Below are positions 917 through 6,861 of a stretch of DNA of 6,861 nucleotides, piece after piece (position 1 is the first letter of the stretch; the number at the start of each line of letters is the position of its first letter). Source of the stretch: Candidatus Bathyarchaeum sp. (GTDB lineage Archaea > Thermoproteota > Bathyarchaeia > Bathyarchaeales > Bathyarchaeaceae); assembly GCA_003096255.1 (NCBI GenBank), contig PIXS01000377.1, forward strand, positions 1 to 6,861. Reading direction: 5' to 3'. The position numbers and the translations under genes are program-made. The notes under the pieces were generated by a model, which saw only the letters and a program-made list of their open reading frames with translations, had not been told where the DNA came from and did not search any database.

Positions 917-951
917 GTAGCACCTGTAGGCAGCCTGTCAGAGTGGCTGGT

Positions 952-3084
952 ATGAAAAAAATTGGAACTTCAATAATTCTACTTTTTCTAGCTTTTTCGT
1001 TGTGCTGTAGTTTACAGTTTGTTGGCATAGGTTTGTTTCCGCAAATTGCCATAGTCAGGGCAGAGCCTAGGACGATTGTTGTTCCTGACGATTACTCGAC
1101 TATTGGCTGGGCAGTTGGCAACGCCTCGGAAGGCGACACCATATTCGTGAAGGAAGGCACATACCGTGAGGCTCTGCTGATTAAGAAGTCGCTGTCGCTT
1201 GTGGGTGAGAACAAAGAAACAACAATTATCAACGGGCACAATGCTGGACCTGCCCTTTACATCCAAGTGGACAATGTAAACGTGACAGGCTTTACGATAA
1301 TAAACGGTGAAGAGCCCCTTCCCCCGTCTAATTTGTTTCCCTATGGTACTAGACTTGCGGGAATACACATGCTCAGTGTAAGTAACTGCAACATAACTAA
1401 CAATGTTGTGGCAAACAGCGGTAGAGGAATCTGGCTCTATAACTCACATAATATCCGCGTTGCTGATAACCAGATAAGAGACAATCAAGAGACTGGCATC
1501 CACCTTGAGTCCTCTTCTAACAGCATAATAGTTGGCAACTCTGTGGAAAGTAGTTGGGGCGGCATTATCCTCAAGGATTCTGGCAACAACATCCTCAGGG
1601 ACAACAGTGTGTTGAATGTGAGTGCAGGCTTCAAGGTTTCTGGTGGTGAACTCTCAGAATTTCTTAATGATGTTGATTTCTCAAACACGATTGACGGCAA
1701 CGCTATTCATTATTTGGTTGACCAAAAAGACTTGACCATAAATCCGTCCACGTATCCAAATTTGGATTTCGTTATCTTGGTGAGATGTACGAATATTGTT
1801 GTTGAAAACTTTCAGTTTACTAACGCGCATGTGGGAATCCATTTGGCATACACTGACGAATCGACCATAATGGGTAACATTATAACTGGTTCAAGCGTCA
1901 GGCTCGATTATTCCTCTCACAACTTGCTAGTGAACAATACTGCCGCAATTCATTTGGAGTCTTCGCATTACAATAGAATAGCAAATAGTAGTTGTGGACT
2001 GGATCTGCGGAGGTCCTCTTACAACATAATCACTGGTAACAATGTTTCAAGGAGAAGTTTTGGAATAAATCTTAGTTTCTCTTCCTCCGATAATCATATA
2101 GAAGGGAACGATATAGCATACAATACAGACGGCGTTTTTTTCTACGAAGCTGGTTATAACAACACCATACTTGGAAACAACATAACACACAGTGGAGATA
2201 GCGGCATCTGGGTTGAAGGCACAAGCCCCACCTCAGATTATATTCGGATAATTGGAAACAACATCACAGATAGCGCCAGATGGGGTATCCTGATGCGTTC
2301 TTCTTATGGCAACACCATAGTTGGCAACTACATAGCAAACAACCAAAACGGGATCCAAATCTCTGGGGATAACGGTCAAAAATGCCACGTAGTAGGAAAC
2401 CACATAGCAAACAATGAAGAGGGAATCCGAATTCTCACACAATTTGGAAGCGAGTACTACCACAACAGCTTGATTAACAATACGCTTCAGGTCTACTGTG
2501 GGTCAAGAAGCCTCAGTGAACAAACGTGGGATAACGGTTATCCTTCTGGCGGCAACTACTGGAGCGACTACACGGGAGTAGATGCTGACAATGACGGCAT
2601 TGGAGACACCCCCTACACTATATATGAGAACAATGACGACAACTATCCGCTTATGGCTCCATTAATGACCTTTGATGCTGGCATGTGGGAATGGATCAGC
2701 TATAGTGTTGACGTCATAAGCATCTCTAATATTTCAAGTTTCAGTTTTGACCCTGAAGACACCAAGATAAGCTTCAGTGTAGATGATGAGGATGGAACAG
2801 CCGGCTTCTGCAGAGTAACCATACCAAAAGACTTGCTGGATGCGGAGGGCGACTGGGCTGTCAATGTGGACGGCAACCCTGTGAATCCATCCATTAGTAG
2901 CGACGCAGACAATTCGTACCTCTACTTCACCTACAACCACAACAAGCAAACCATAAACGTAATCGGAACACAAGCAATCCCCGAGTTTCCTTCATGGATT
3001 ATCTTGCCTCTGATCATTGCCGTAACTTTGGTGATTCTAGTCTGGAAACAGAAACTGAATAAGTTAATCTTAAATACCATGTAA
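952..3084 (+). CDS. Secreted NosD/CASH-type beta-helix protein with PEF-CTERM-like anchor
   Basis: This is a complete surface protein of about 710 aa. I chose ATG 952 because the signal peptide then begins directly with MKKIGTS; GTG 943 in the same frame would add three residues. The signal peptide is residues 1 to about 37, with likely cleavage near VRA-EP. The mature protein opens with a typical periplasmic-copper/NosD-family start (TIVVPDDYSTIGWAV..GDTIFVKEGTYRE). Right-handed beta-helix rungs rich in N-x-I-x-x-N and G-I-x-L follow to about residue 520, with a non-repetitive insert near 225-290. An NYWS module with a Ca-binding-like loop DADNDGIGD lies at 544-552. A beta-sandwich-like domain spans about 575-670, then PEFPSW at 677-682, a membrane helix and a basic tail. 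The family acts on or binds surface glycans, and NosD itself serves N2O-reductase maturation; neither role is shown here. There is no clear Shine-Dalgarno. The stop codon lies inside the palindrome preceding the HTH gene. Confidence 0.9.
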   Translation: MKKIGTSIILLFLAFSLCCSLQFVGIGLFPQIAIVRAEPRTIVVPDDYSTIGWAVGNASEGDTIFVKEGTYREALLIKKSLSLVGENKETTIINGHNAGPALYIQVDNVNVTGFTIINGEEPLPPSNLFPYGTRLAGIHMLSVSNCNITNNVVANSGRGIWLYNSHNIRVADNQIRDNQETGIHLESSSNSIIVGNSVESSWGGIILKDSGNNILRDNSVLNVSAGFKVSGGELSEFLNDVDFSNTIDGNAIHYLVDQKDLTINPSTYPNLDFVILVRCTNIVVENFQFTNAHVGIHLAYTDESTIMGNIITGSSVRLDYSSHNLLVNNTAAIHLESSHYNRIANSSCGLDLRRSSYNIITGNNVSRRSFGINLSFSSSDNHIEGNDIAYNTDGVFFYEAGYNNTILGNNITHSGDSGIWVEGTSPTSDYIRIIGNNITDSARWGILMRSSYGNTIVGNYIANNQNGIQISGDNGQKCHVVGNHIANNEEGIRILTQFGSEYYHNSLINNTLQVYCGSRSLSEQTWDNGYPSGGNYWSDYTGVDADNDGIGDTPYTIYENNDDNYPLMAPLMTFDAGMWEWISYSVDVISISNISSFSFDPEDTKISFSVDDEDGTAGFCRVTIPKDLLDAEGDWAVNVDGNPVNPSISSDADNSYLYFTYNHNKQTINVIGTQAIPEFPSWIILPLIIAVTLVILVWKQKLNKLILNTM
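3070..3076 (+). promoter_or_regulatory. Candidate TATA box of the HTH regulator gene
   Basis: TTAAATA lies inside the last codons of the upstream gene. The expected start of transcription, about 26 bp downstream of its centre, is near 3099. That leaves a leader of about 17 nt before ATG 3116, and the 3081-3100 palindrome would cover the region between TATA and start site. The match to the archaeal consensus is moderate and the site is unproven. Confidence 0.4.
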
Positions 3085-3100
3085 GCCTTAAGTGGCTTAC
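3081..3100 (+). promoter_or_regulatory. Palindromic operator copy 1, GTAAGCC-N6-GGCTTAC
   Basis: Perfect 7-bp arms (3081-3087 and 3094-3100) surround the spacer TTAAGT. The site overlaps the stop codon of the upstream gene and ends 15 bp before the regulator's ATG. There is no T-run after it, which argues against a terminator. The same arms with the same spacer length recur at 4327-4346. A dimeric HTH protein is the natural ligand, and the adjacent HTH gene is the best candidate. Placed between TATA and the predicted start site, occupancy should repress, which points to autorepression. Confidence 0.7.
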
Positions 3101-3115
3101 GTAGAGGCGGCGGAA

Positions 3116-3574
3116 ATGACCTTAAGTATTGGCTACCTCACACCAAGACAACTTCTAATCTGGGACCGAAGACGTAAAGGGCTTAAAGAAGCAAGCATCG
3201 CAAGGGAACTTCAGGTAAGCCGCCAAACAATTCACAGAGCCCTCAGCATCGCTCACCTAAAAATTTTGGAATCGCTTGAAGAGACGGCGCGAATAAACAA
3301 AATTAAAATCAAAAAAGTAAACCCTGTGAGAGGTTTTCTAATAGGATACAGCTCCCACTTCAAGACAGAAACCCTAATCACCTTTTCCACAAAAAATGGC
3401 ATCCAAATCTGGTACAAGCATGAAGGGGACTGCAAGAACTGTGATCAGCTAAAGGAATGTAAGGAAACACTAGTCGCCGAAGCCAAAGAACGTAACATAA
3501 GATTGCCAGAAGACTGCTTGCCCTCCGATTATGCGGAGAAACTGTTTGCGGAAATTACGGGTGACAAAAAATGA
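3116..3574 (+). CDS. Small HTH transcriptional regulator with C-terminal cysteine cluster
   Basis: This is a cytoplasmic DNA-binding protein of 152 aa. Residues about 8-53 (LTPRQLLIWDRRRKGLKEASIARELQVSRQTIHRA...) form an HTH of the sigma-70-region-4/LuxR/Tfx-like type, with the recognition helix near 35-46. Residues 70-102 look like beta strands (GFLIGYSSHF, LITFSTKNG, IQIWYKHEG). They lead into C106-x2-C109-x5-C115, plus C134, which could bind metal or sense redox state; that is an inference. I chose ATG 3116 over GTG 3092 because GTG lies inside the palindrome and upstream of the predicted transcription start, while ATG has a fair Shine-Dalgarno (GAGGCGG, 3104-3110). The stop overlaps the next start as ATGA, so the two proteins are probably translationally coupled. 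I cannot name the family more precisely, but an archaeal Tfx-like regulator is the closest description. Confidence 0.8.
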   Translation: MTLSIGYLTPRQLLIWDRRRKGLKEASIARELQVSRQTIHRALSIAHLKILESLEETARINKIKIKKVNPVRGFLIGYSSHFKTETLITFSTKNGIQIWYKHEGDCKNCDQLKECKETLVAEAKERNIRLPEDCLPSDYAEKLFAEITGDKK

Positions 3575-4275
3575 CCAACAAAAATGGTTTTTGGCGTTGG
3601 TGTAGAAATCCTCCAGAAATACCTAAGACTAAACACAAAAAATTGCTTGTAGGTTGCTTAATTTGTTCTGTATTGGGCGTCAGTATGCTTGTAAGTTCAG
3701 TCGCATTCTATGGTGGGTTTATGAGTGGGCAAACCAGCACCATTGCCTTATCAAGCGCTATTCTGTCTGTGGCCAATTTAGCAGAGGGACCATATTATAT
3801 ACAGAACGTAACTTATCAGCCGATAGCAGAAGCCAACAATTCAACCGTAGAAAATTATGACATGTGGATGAGGATGATTCAAGAAAATCCAAGCTTTGAA
3901 GTCCTGAGTTTTGGGGGCGGTAGAGGTCGTGGCTATGACGATGTTGCCAGTTTGAATACAACTGTAATTAACATGGGAGACCAAAATTTCACTGTCACAT
4001 CCATCGAAATTTATCGGGGTGATTATCTTTTTGCGTTAATAGAAGGACCCTTTACTGTAAATGCACGTACTGTAGGAATCGTAAACTTCCAAGTCTACAA
4101 TCTAACAGAGCTATCAAAAATCCACGAGCAGCTGAAAACTCGAATCTACAATCAAGAAAATGAACACAACGAGACGTTATTCGGTGGGCAAGTTGTTTAT
4201 CATGTCATATTGAAAACTGCAGAAGGTGTCACTGATACTTTTGAAACATTTGTTTTCCCACTGGTCAGTTTTTAG
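3571..4275 (+). CDS. Single-pass membrane protein with extracytoplasmic domain, unknown function
   Basis: This protein of 234 aa belongs to no family I recognise. The N-terminal 24 residues are basic (R9, R12, K19, K21, K23, K24) and should face the cytoplasm. One membrane helix follows at about 25-46. The remaining ~185 residues should lie outside the cell and carry six N-glycosylation sequons (N79, N90, N129, N139, N177, N200). Residues about 125-175 and 205-232 look like beta strands of an Ig-like sandwich (TTVINMGDQNFTVTSIEIY, GGQVVYHVILKT, DTFETFVFP). A Gly/Arg-rich loop, GGGRGRG, lies at 115-121. The start is well supported by GGGTGA at 3559-3564 with a 6-base spacer, and it overlaps the HTH gene by 4 bp. 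Coupling to a regulator suggests a membrane partner or sensor for it, but that is inference. An export-accessory role with the ABC operon downstream is an alternative. Confidence 0.8.
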   Translation: MTNKNGFWRWCRNPPEIPKTKHKKLLVGCLICSVLGVSMLVSSVAFYGGFMSGQTSTIALSSAILSVANLAEGPYYIQNVTYQPIAEANNSTVENYDMWMRMIQENPSFEVLSFGGGRGRGYDDVASLNTTVINMGDQNFTVTSIEIYRGDYLFALIEGPFTVNARTVGIVNFQVYNLTELSKIHEQLKTRIYNQENEHNETLFGGQVVYHVILKTAEGVTDTFETFVFPLVSF

Positions 4276-4283
4276 TCTGGGTC

Positions 4284-4307
4284 TTTTTGAGTTGGTGTGT
4301 AGTTTTT
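4284..4307 (+). terminator. T-run terminator region after the regulator cassette
   Basis: Two T5 runs (4284-4288 and 4303-4307) stand in a T/G-rich stretch directly after the stop codon at 4273-4275. Archaeal RNA polymerase typically terminates on such U-rich stretches without a hairpin. A new promoter follows at 4348, which agrees with transcription ending here. Confidence 0.4.
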
Positions 4308-4326
4308 GGTTTGAGTTAACTAGAAA

Positions 4327-4346
4327 GTAAGCCTTCCATGGCTTAC
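4327..4346 (+). promoter_or_regulatory. Palindromic operator copy 2, GTAAGCC-N6-GGCTTAC
   Basis: The arms at 4327-4333 and 4340-4346 are identical to the 3081 copy, and the 6-base spacer differs (TTCCAT). The right arm ends one base before the TATA box, so the site covers the position where TFB contacts the BRE. Binding here could block TFB or, as for some archaeal activators, help recruit it. The different position relative to TATA compared with copy 1 leaves open opposite effects at the two promoters. Confidence 0.72.
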
Positions 4347-4347
4347 A

Positions 4348-4355
4348 TTTATATA
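4348..4355 (+). promoter_or_regulatory. TATA box of the ABC transporter operon
   Basis: TTTATATA is an excellent match to the archaeal TATA consensus. Transcription is expected to start near 4378, giving a leader of about 33 nt. The leader contains a GGAG Shine-Dalgarno at 4401-4404, six bases before the TTG start of the ATPase gene. Confidence 0.75.
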
Positions 4356-4410: not shown

Positions 4411-5337
4411 TTGAGTACAAACTCATTCATAGTTAACACCGACAACATCTCAAAATATTTTGGAAACATCCTTGCACTAAACGACCTAAACCTACAGGTG
4501 CCAAAAGGAATAACCGGCTTTGTAGGCAGAAACGGGGCAGGCAAAACCACAGCCATCGGAATCCTGCTAGGACTAATCAAACCCACAAGGGGCAAAGCCA
4601 CCGTTTTTGGCTTAGACTCATGGAACGACAGCTTCAACATCAGATGCAGGTTAGGCGTCATGCATGAAATCAATGCGTATCCTGGCAACTTCAGTGGCAA
4701 ACGTTACCTTGAGCATGTTGCTCGGATTTATGGTGTATCACAGGCTGAGGAGCGAATCAAGGCTCAACTGGAGGCTGTGGATTTATGGGATGCACGTGAG
4801 AAACCTATCAAAACGTACTCCGCAGGAATGATTCGTCGTTTAGGTTTAGCCCAAGCATTAATCAGCAATCCTGAACTAGTTATCCTTGATGAGCCCACAG
4901 CCAACATCGATCCTATTGGCCGCGCAACATTTCTTGGTATAATAAAAAGAATGCACAAGGAACAGGGCACCGATTTTCTGATATCGACCCACATTTTGAG
5001 CGATTTAGAGAAGGTATGCAGTTGGCTCTCGATAATAGACGCAGGCAAAATCGTTGAGCAAGGTCCCATAGGTGACCTAGCAGCAAAGTATTCAGCGAAC
5101 ACATACAAGATTGTGGTTTCTGATCCCCAGCTTTTGGTTAAGAAACTCAAGACCGCTGAGTTCATAGAAAAAGTCTGGATAGAAAAGGACACCATCTACT
5201 GTCAAGTAAACGATGCAGACAGCTTTTACACTGAAGTTCCCAAAATTGCTGGAGACCTCAAACTGCAACTGAAAACTTTCCAGCTCATGTTGGGTACGAT
5301 AGATGAAATCTACGCGAAGACTGCAGGGGGCAATTAA
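4411..5337 (+). CDS. ABC transporter ATP-binding protein (ABC-2 exporter type)
   Basis: This 308-aa cytoplasmic ATPase should power the permease encoded next. Walker A is at 39-47 (GRNGAGKTT). The Q-loop region near 84-90 reads MHEINAY, with Glu or His where Gln is usual. The signature motif is YSAGM at 136-140, a variant of LSGGQ. Walker B is at 155-161 (ELVILDE), the D-loop reads ANIDP at 164-168 (the more common form is SGLDP), and the switch His is H194 in STHIL. Residues about 230-308 form the C-terminal extension seen in ABC-2 ATPases such as the NosF/CcmA/DrrA type. The start is TTG, supported by GGAG at 4401-4404 and by its position just before the conserved first strand. The permease gene begins 1 bp after the stop. 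The substrate is not predictable; export or extrusion is likely from the permease type. Confidence 0.95.
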   Translation: MSTNSFIVNTDNISKYFGNILALNDLNLQVPKGITGFVGRNGAGKTTAIGILLGLIKPTRGKATVFGLDSWNDSFNIRCRLGVMHEINAYPGNFSGKRYLEHVARIYGVSQAEERIKAQLEAVDLWDAREKPIKTYSAGMIRRLGLAQALISNPELVILDEPTANIDPIGRATFLGIIKRMHKEQGTDFLISTHILSDLEKVCSWLSIIDAGKIVEQGPIGDLAAKYSANTYKIVVSDPQLLVKKLKTAEFIEKVWIEKDTIYCQVNDADSFYTEVPKIAGDLKLQLKTFQLMLGTIDEIYAKTAGGN

Positions 5338-5338
5338 G

Positions 5339-6079
5339 ATGGCTCAAAACAAGTTTTTGGGTTTAATGCGTTGGGAACTGGAAGAAAACTTGAGCCTGCC
5401 CCTGCTGGCTTTTCTTGTTGCCTCAGCAATTATCGCTACTATGGTTAATTATCGATTTGGTTCATGTTATCGGGAATATACTCGCCTGTATTATAGTTCG
5501 GGCACGGTTTTTCTTATTTCAAGTCTAGTTGCAGGGGCGTTCTTTGCCCGTAGTTTCGCCGGCAGTATCGGTAGAGGCACAACTAAGATTATGTTGTCCT
5601 ACCCAATTAAGAGGTCACAGCTTTTCCTCTCTAAATTCGCCGCCCTGTTTTTGGTGACTTCCGTCATTTACGTTCCAGTGTTCACTATGCATGTTTATGT
5701 CGACGGTTTAGCTGCTTTTGGACCCATGATTCTTCTGTCGCTGTTCGGGTTATTTCTACAGTTAATGCTGACTTGTTCCGTTGCTGTAGGCATATCAATG
5801 GTGACAAAAAGCGAGGTTGTGTCAATTTTAGCCACTGTTTTGCTACTGTTCGGTCTTGACAGTGTTCTTGGATATAAACACATTCTAACTGCCGAAGGTA
5901 GGTTATTCTATCTTTTTCAGTATGTTGGTAACGAACTCTACGGTAAGTTGCCATTTTCAGGGTCGCCCTTAGTTACAGCAAATGACACACTGCTGGCTGT
6001 TCTCGTGCCGATAATGGTTTTTGTGGTCTTAATTGTGGCGTCTTTTGTGTACTTTACCCGTTTTTTGGAGGTTGACTGA
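5339..6079 (+). CDS. ABC-2-type transporter permease
   Basis: This is a 246-aa integral membrane protein with about six helices, near residues 17-36, 55-75, 98-120, 128-155, 158-178 and 217-241. After the second helix comes the cytoplasmic stretch SFAGSIGRGTTKIMLSYPIKRSQ (within 72-94). It fits the ABC-2/NosY-type signature in which a surface helix contacts the ATPase (family knowledge). The start is ATG 5339, with AGGGGG at 5325-5330 and an 8-base spacer; an in-frame upstream TTG at 5303 would overlap the ATPase gene and is less likely. Spacing to the ATPase gene is 1 bp and to the next gene 2 bp, so the three are co-transcribed. A homodimer of this permease with two copies of the ATPase would make a full exporter. 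Confidence 0.92.
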   Translation: MAQNKFLGLMRWELEENLSLPLLAFLVASAIIATMVNYRFGSCYREYTRLYYSSGTVFLISSLVAGAFFARSFAGSIGRGTTKIMLSYPIKRSQLFLSKFAALFLVTSVIYVPVFTMHVYVDGLAAFGPMILLSLFGLFLQLMLTCSVAVGISMVTKSEVVSILATVLLLFGLDSVLGYKHILTAEGRLFYLFQYVGNELYGKLPFSGSPLVTANDTLLAVLVPIMVFVVLIVASFVYFTRFLEVD

Positions 6080-6081
6080 AA

Positions 6082-6861
6082 GTGAAATCTTTGACCAACG
6101 CAGGTATAATCATCATAGTAATTGGGCTCTCTTTTCTAGTGAGCACCTTCTATAGGAGCACCACTGCGTCAGGAGGTTTCAGTTATGGTAGTGGAATGAG
6201 CGGTGGTTTAGCACCAAATACGTGGAATGTAGACTGGAATACCAGCCTGCCCTATACACCGAGCTTCCTTAAATATTTCTTAATTCCACGCGAACATAGA
6301 ATGGACATACAAACTAACACGGTAATCGACGTGTATGTATTAAACCCAAGAGGTGTACAGCTGTGGCTTGCTGAAGGTAAGCTTGAGCCAACCTTTTCCT
6401 TTGAGGGTGTAAGGCAGCAGACCGTAACTTTCAATATCTATGACAGAGACGACTACTCGTTGCTCGTTTACAATCCTTCAGCAGAAAGTGCACCGTTCAC
6501 GTTAAGCGTAAATGGACACGGTCTCGAAACAGACCTGTTGTACTTATCGTTAATAATCACAGTATTTGGGGCAGCAGTCACCCTTGTGTCGTTTATACCT
6601 AGAGGAAGTGGAAGCAAAAAACAGAATTTAGCTAAGAAGAGGCCTGTTTTTCCTGTTACTGTATTGGCGATTCTAATGCTGTCCTTGCCAACTGCCTCTT
6701 GTGCTGCCCAGTTTCAGGTATCAAGCACTCTTGCCCCAAGCTGGATGAATGAAGGCACATACGTTGACTACGATTTCACGCCGCAGGCTGGATATTCAAA
6801 CGGAGTTTTAGAAACATCTGTTGATCTATCAGTTTCTTTTCTGAATGGCTCCCGAATTAGG
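6082..6861 (+). CDS. Multi-pass extracytoplasmic protein of the ABC operon, 3' end missing
   Basis: The frame from GTG 6082 stays open for 260 codons to the window edge. A strong Shine-Dalgarno, GGAGGT at 6067-6072 with a 9-base spacer, fixes the start. There is an N-terminal helix at about 7-22. An outside domain spans about 25-150, with Gly/Ser-rich entry (SGGFSYGSGMSGG) and beta strands ending in DDYSLLVYNPS, which resembles GOLD/PPC-like sandwich domains. A second helix is at 152-173, followed by a basic loop (SGSKKQNLAKKR, 177-187). A third helix at 189-209 ends in TASCAAQ like a signal peptide, and a second outside domain begins and is cut off. The position as third gene suggests a substrate-handling or envelope partner of the exporter. 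The family is not recognised. Confidence 0.85.
   Translation, partial: MKSLTNAGIIIIVIGLSFLVSTFYRSTTASGGFSYGSGMSGGLAPNTWNVDWNTSLPYTPSFLKYFLIPREHRMDIQTNTVIDVYVLNPRGVQLWLAEGKLEPTFSFEGVRQQTVTFNIYDRDDYSLLVYNPSAESAPFTLSVNGHGLETDLLYLSLIITVFGAAVTLVSFIPRGSGSKKQNLAKKRPVFPVTVLAILMLSLPTASCAAQFQVSSTLAPSWMNEGTYVDYDFTPQAGYSNGVLETSVDLSVSFLNGSRIR

Follow-up and report, generated by a model that had tools for sequence, protein, structure and literature searches.

The 6,861-nucleotide stretch of archaeal DNA studied here (Candidatus Bathyarchaeum sp., assembly GCA_003096255.1, contig PIXS01000377.1), hereafter referred to as the window, carries a gene for a small helix-turn-helix (HTH) regulator, a gene for a membrane protein whose start overlaps the stop codon of the HTH gene as ATGA, and an operon for an ATP-binding cassette (ABC) transporter (Table 1). 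An exact palindrome, GTAAGCC-N6-GGCTTAC, is present at the promoter of the HTH/membrane-protein operon and again at that of the ABC operon, with the spacers TTAAGT and TTCCAT, respectively. Both palindromes are very probably operators of the HTH protein encoded between them, as judged from their conservation and placement. The original prediction had read them as a regulon of two promoters under the control of this protein; its positions and letters for the two identically armed, equally spaced repeats are exact, and the HTH start (3116), the protein length of 152 residues and the TATA-like box at 4348 are as it gave them. Its statement that the window holds no third full copy can be extended, as none was found by our window scan even at ≤3 mismatches. 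At this threshold the chance mean is 0.25 matches, and two matches were reached in 4 of 200 shuffles. The gene upstream ends within the left arm of copy 1, where its stop codon occupies 3082-3084, a detail absent from the original prediction. Copy 2 lies one base 5' of its TATA-like box, and its right arm overlaps the expected position of the transcription factor B recognition element (BRE).

Table 1. Features of the window and the evidence for them.
Feature	Position	Strand	Evidence or remark
TATA-like box CTTAAATA of the HTH/membrane-protein operon	3069..3076	+	by eye; 4 nt 5' of operator 1; same layout in L063
Putative operator 1, GTAAGCC-N6-GGCTTAC, 3' of TATA, near the expected transcription start	3081..3100	.	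pattern scan, locus comparison
HTH regulator of 152 residues; sigma-4/LuxR-like HTH at the N-terminus, beta/alpha domain at the C-terminus	3116..3574	+	
Codons of the cysteine trio, C106-x2-C109-x5-C115 of the regulator	3431..3460	+	invariant in alignments A1, A2
Partner membrane protein, 234 aa; one predicted transmembrane helix (~residues 23-49), beta-rich outer domain	3571..4275	+	
Proposed docking tag, FWRWCRNPPE at residues 7-16, N-terminal to the transmembrane helix	3589..3618	+	homologue alignment; shared with other partners
Putative operator 2, arms as operator 1, 5' of the ABC-promoter TATA	4327..4346	.	pattern scan, L063 comparison
TATA-like box TTTATATA of the ABC operon	4348..4355	+	by eye; aligned with L063
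ABC transporter ATPase, 308 aa, TTG start	4411..5337	+	PF00005 3.8e-22; 76% identity in L063
ABC-2 type permease	5339..6079	+	PF12679 4.2e-7; 69% identity in L063
Third gene of the ABC operon, exported/membrane protein, leaves the window incomplete	6082..6861	+	50% identity in L063

The closest relative's locus that we examined (L063, the same as L001, in the 2.1-Mb genome G001) has the gene order of the window, namely HTH, membrane protein, ABC ATPase, permease and third gene; the HTH and membrane proteins are 78% and 52% identical. Both palindromes are perfect there, 36 nt before and 1211 nt after the HTH start, at the orthologous promoters, and the 2.1 Mb contain no further perfect copy. 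Alignment of the two ABC promoters reveals conservation of the 20 bp and the TATA region between diverged flanks; at the HTH promoters the conserved block extends from the TATA through the palindrome into the gene start. Three perfect copies exist in 256 genomes of the class, the two in G001 and one before another HTH orthologue, with a chance expectation of ~1.6 if the mean genome has 1.68 Mb (an estimate). With one mismatch allowed, 49 of the 256 genomes contain matches, many without any relation to the HTH gene, and only perfect or locus-conserved copies consequently carry weight. As the original prediction had proposed, we looked for the motif before orthologous HTH and ABC genes and for unrelated copies elsewhere. 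It precedes the HTH gene, with 0-4 mismatches and 25-55 nt from the start, at 12 of 16 orthologue loci (a set that includes the near-duplicates L003 and L010); the four loci without it are three from Asgard archaea and one from Bathyarchaeia with a broken HTH gene. Before the ABC genes it is perfect, and in the same place against the TATA, in L063, the sole other locus of this gene order examined, and unrelated copies were absent from G001 at zero mismatches. In L002, L004, L007 and L009, a third half-site in the form (G)CTTAC-N3-GTAAGC lies ahead of the main palindrome upstream of the HTH gene.

The wider regulator family was surveyed at 142 loci, comprising 80 of 97 places in the class (the 17 weakest or partial ones were left out), the window, five HTH-orthologue loci, and 56 Asgard and Halobacteriota loci; Halobacteriota is the label we use for the phylum to which the Geoglobus genome G008 belongs. 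Thirty loci were read from each of these two groups, and five duplicate loci (L006, L168, L170, L171, L198) were removed. At the 141 loci with enough sequence, we sought palindromes of a 7-6-7 layout with at least 6 of 7 arm positions paired within 75 nt of the HTH start. They are present at 12/15 Bathy-A, 13/25 Bathy-B, 24/26 Bathy-C and 26/30 Halobacteriota loci, in comparison with 12-19% in shuffles, so that a clade-specific 20-bp palindrome precedes the HTH gene at 75 of 96 loci in four of six groups. The arms vary by clade, from GTAAGCC in Bathy-A to GTAAAYA-like sequences in Bathy-C and GTCAACA-like ones in Halobacteriota, and so, on a purely descriptive level, do the residues of the recognition helix. 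Asgard loci carry a different, GGTTAAC-like element, seen by eye and without statistics. At loci with a recognized site, the operator has the better TATA-like box on its 5' side in 11/14 (A), 15/19 (B), 24/24 (C) and 25/27 (Halobacteriota) cases, with 3, 2, 0 and 2 ties and with the opposite order in 0, 2, 0 and 0. Fifteen Halobacteriota genomes contain 20 sites with at most one mismatch; 15 of these are at HTH promoters (in 14 of the 15 genomes), and the five sites elsewhere equal the number given by a control pattern (5). Judged from these patterns, the HTH protein can be expected with considerable confidence to bind the palindromes, and autoregulation probably holds widely across its family. 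GTAAATCTTTAC is among the operators of subfamily D (Bathy-D).

The predicted structure of the regulator (predicted local distance difference test, pLDDT, 86) consists of the HTH, a beta-sheet and two helices. Its best Foldseek matches are EnfR chains (E 0.012-0.027, template-modelling scores 0.30-0.36), onto which just residues 5-60, the HTH, superpose in VIA-align. By the curated cut-offs the regulator is a member of neither Tfx nor EnfR, as the scores of 23.7 bits against TIGR00721 (Tfx; HTH part only) and 15 bits against NF053597 (EnfR) are far under the curated cut-offs of 60.25 and 260. A sigma-factor identity was likewise rejected: the Pfam results contain no sigma-2 (region 2) match, and Sigma70_r4_2 scores 15.1 bits, under its cut-off of 25.7. 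The Pfam scan gave 11 families at E ≤0.1, and TrmB is not one of them. The C-terminal domain carries a trio of cysteines (Cys; CxxCx5C), C106, C109 and C115, which is invariant in our alignments A1 (37 rows) and A2 (26 rows). All 60 Asgard and Halobacteriota loci were located by this pattern and hence cannot show its loss (trio in 60/60).

The original prediction treated the membrane protein as incidental; it now seems to be the more important half of the pair. Taking as partner the longest open reading frame (ORF) with a transmembrane (TM) segment beside the regulator stop, a rule that makes no use of any motif, we found one at 128 of 142 loci (Bathy-D included), often with an ATGA overlap, which is favored by our choice of the start codon nearest that stop. 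At 8 of the 100 loci with a Cys trio this rule gave no partner, nor did it at 5 of a further 27, a group in which the broken copy L092 is counted. At L092 (G145), the regulator gene contains stops or a frameshift, and the partner, with GWCQKP, is still open. The model of the window's partner (pLDDT 75, moderate confidence) combines one TM helix with a beta-rich outer domain and has no convincing structural match. Without their first 45 residues, 114 partners (>90 aa, Bathy-D left out) fall into 61 single-linkage groups, and a Pfam scan of ten gave two PQQ propellers, two NosD helices, one protein with carboxypeptidase-regulatory repeats, and nothing for five. What such partners have in common is a short tag before the TM helix, WCRNPPE in the window and WCPQP, ACPKPP, ACRLP, VCLxxP or GWCPN in others; among 18 of 35 homologues of the window's partner that were aligned, P14 is invariant and W10, C11 and P15 nearly so. 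Of the 92 partners that belong to Cys-trio regulators (subfamily D excluded), 90 have a Cys ahead of the TM helix, the two others being L077 (a masked stretch) and L086 (a tagged ORF lies upstream instead). Among TM proteins taken as controls from the same loci, 50 of 143 have one.

Bathy-C forms one clade with full support, and all its regulators are without the Cys trio. The tag of their partners reads GW[LFIVM]P in 20 of the 21 found, the partner in L105 being without it; the partners in L123 and L126 carry a Cys at another point ahead of the TM helix. Downstream of 26 Bathy-C regulators this tag occurs 79 times on the coding strand versus once on the opposite strand (141 kb); at A/B/D loci it occurs once on each (268 kb). 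Up to 10 tagged genes, which encode different membrane proteins, follow one Bathy-C regulator (L111). Tandem arrays sharing one RGW[LFI]P tag behind a single regulator are seen in L111, L109, L125, L106 and other Bathy-C loci.

These observations lend themselves to a model in which the palindromes are operators of an HTH protein that forms a signalling pair with a tag-docked membrane partner, a reading to which we assign, as a whole, a probability of roughly 0.65. A dimer of the HTH protein would bind both palindromes and would most likely repress its own operon, i.e., itself and the membrane partner, because operator 1 sits between the TATA and the expected start site; a location 3' of the TATA is that of archaeal repressors which block polymerase. 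The ABC operon is attributed to the same protein because operator 2 abuts the TATA on its 5' side and lies over the BRE position. There, repression through an obstructed BRE is slightly more likely than activation. The short cytoplasmic pre-TM tag of the partner (WCRNPPE in the window) would dock on the C-terminal domain of the regulator, which the shared tag makes likely, and encounters of the variable outer domain would decide whether the regulator is held or released for DNA; for this sensory role of the outer domain we see even odds. In the clade of the window, the neighboring ABC operon would have been added via the second operator, so that the transporter responds as well. We infer a membrane-docked autoregulator that perhaps shares a metal site with its partner, although a site built by three regulator Cys and the tag Cys remains a tentative proposal. 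The furthest-reaching version, an undescribed form of archaeal transmembrane signalling with such a 3 + 1 metal clip, a portable tag on unrelated outer domains and, in Bathy-C, a hydrophobic GW[LFI]P clip that serves up to ten tagged sensors per regulator, is doubtful.

A number of findings weigh against this model. Only two loci, related to each other, are known to have the site at the ABC promoter, and this ABC arrangement is missing from the stretch examined at 13 further loci of the window's subfamily; the regulon of two promoters consequently stands for a small clade (the window and L063) and not for the subfamily at large. The 20-bp palindrome occurs at just 1 of 30 Asgard and 8 of 15 Bathy-D loci. 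A pre-TM Cys is carried by 35% of the control TM proteins, and the tight motif by 6 of 143, some of which are extra tagged neighbors of a regulator. Loss of the Cys in both regulator and partner counts as one event because it is confined to one clade, and 6 of 26 Bathy-C loci have no tag downstream. Subfamily D (15 loci) keeps the Cys trio with a pre-TM Cys in 0/15 partners. Finally, a His four residues before C106, found in 14/14 Bathy-A, 30/31 Asgard and 30/30 Halobacteriota regulators (B 4/25, D 0/15), could complete a site without the partner in these three groups; in Bathy-B it is present in only 4/25 regulators, yet the partners keep their Cys. The partners in subfamily D (L128-L142) belong to one conserved family with the N-terminus I[KR]PP...SGKIFKPS and no Cys.

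The strongest competing explanation takes the HTH protein for a plain local autoregulator that answers a cytoplasmic signal, be it a metal, a redox change or a ligand at the Cys domain, with the membrane protein as regulated cargo. The near-exclusive location of the operators at the protein's own promoters fits such a regulator, the Cys trio and the nearby His could form a self-contained metal or redox site, and several partners bear such ordinary surface-protein domains as PQQ propellers or NosD beta-helices. What it leaves unexplained is the common pre-TM tag of otherwise unrelated partners and the fact that the tag Cys is missing from precisely the clade of the trio-less regulators, and we regard it as rather unlikely. 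Another notion is that the tag is a sorting or processing signal of membrane proteins, independent of the regulator: the tag is short, N-terminal, located before a TM helix and repeated on tandem genes, as such a signal might be, but within the stretches examined it is confined to the neighborhood of the regulator (79 versus 1, and 1 and 1 at A/B/D loci) and changes together with the regulator's Cys, which makes this notion improbable.

With respect to the palindromes themselves, binding by the HTH protein is deduced, which leaves room for another binding protein with the HTH gene as a mere target. In Bathyarchaeia, Geoglobus and relatives of methanogens, however, the HTH gene is accompanied by a palindrome whose form is specific to the clade, and there is little likelihood of such a third party. 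Perfect arms and a short loop would also fold into an RNA hairpin, a terminator or attenuator in place of a protein site. By our own placement, site 1 ends near the start expected from the TATA and would thus not be transcribed whole; moreover, one arm sequence is kept at both promoters in a position fixed against the TATA, so that a hairpin function is very improbable. The docked signalling pair remains the explanation that we prefer.

The regulator/membrane-protein pair is present in Bathyarchaeia, to which the relatives of the window's HTH protein belong, in Asgard archaea and in relatives of methanogens. At E ≤0.001, regulator matches were obtained in 66 of 256 genomes of the class, 66 of 195 of the Asgard phylum (with partial or weak ones among them), 109 of 246 of the Geoglobus phylum (30 full-length at E <1e-30, the others covering a part or just the HTH) and 39 of 300 of the phylum of G001 (many weak). 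A methanogen-type regulator has 1329 homologues; among the best 120 of the 1329, those given with a name come from Methanococcoides, Methanoperedens, Methanosarcinaceae and ANME-2 and are labelled hypothetical proteins, except for one named "transcriptional regulator". The family is apparently widespread and undescribed, and no description of the pairing was found in the literature searched, which covered few subscription journals and no preprints.

The product of the third gene of the ABC operon has no Pfam match. Upstream of the HTH gene, two NosD/beta-helix exported proteins are encoded in tandem (1-765 and 943-3084), each with an EFPSW-type C-terminal membrane anchor. Between them lie the palindrome-like TTGGTCAAGAATTCTTGACTAA and a degenerate second copy (826-848 and 881-903), a possible operator of another system.

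Apart from two-component systems and a small number of membrane-bound factors, little is known about how signals from outside reach the archaeal transcription apparatus. The present family, in which operator and docking tag can both be read from the sequence and regulator and partner have both changed naturally within one clade, allows direct tests of transcriptional control across the membrane. Such tests could extend to named methanogens, for instance Methanococcoides, whose named members are hypothetical proteins among the matches listed. Among known proteins, MTH0916 (Tfx) and Thermococcus EnfR (TON_1525; PMC10570040) align well with the regulator in the HTH only. Unlike them, the regulator has an invariant Cys trio and a gene pairing with tagged membrane proteins; the passages of PMC10570040 examined mention no membrane partner of EnfR. 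The TrmBL1/Tgr palindrome represses when 3' of the BRE/TATA and activates when 5' of it, according to the part of PMC4158304 available to us. Our palindrome similarly occupies differing promoter positions, its presumed binding protein being unrelated to TrmBL1. In the zinc clasp of CD4/Lck and the Rad50 zinc hook, a metal is shared by two chains via Cys motifs, with 2 + 2 Cys; the arrangement proposed here would be 3 + 1, and the metal is hypothetical. Extracytoplasmic function (ECF) sigma factors and their membrane anti-sigma factors combine, in one autoregulated operon, a DNA-binding protein of sigma-4 type with a single-TM partner whose cytoplasmic N-terminus may hold it. The pair described here likewise has its membrane partner in the same operon and is an analogue, not a relative: the regulator of 152 residues is without sigma-2, the tag of ~10 residues is no anti-sigma domain, and the transcription machinery is archaeal. 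ArnR of Sulfolobus unites HTH and TM segment in one protein. ArnR/ArnR1 are, like the regulator proposed here, archaeal transcription factors tied to the membrane (as far as described in the accessible part of PMC6396743), and the difference is that HTH and TM segment are here the products of two genes. By analogy, the pair may thus work like a sigma/anti-sigma pair or like a membrane-bound regulator that has been split in two.

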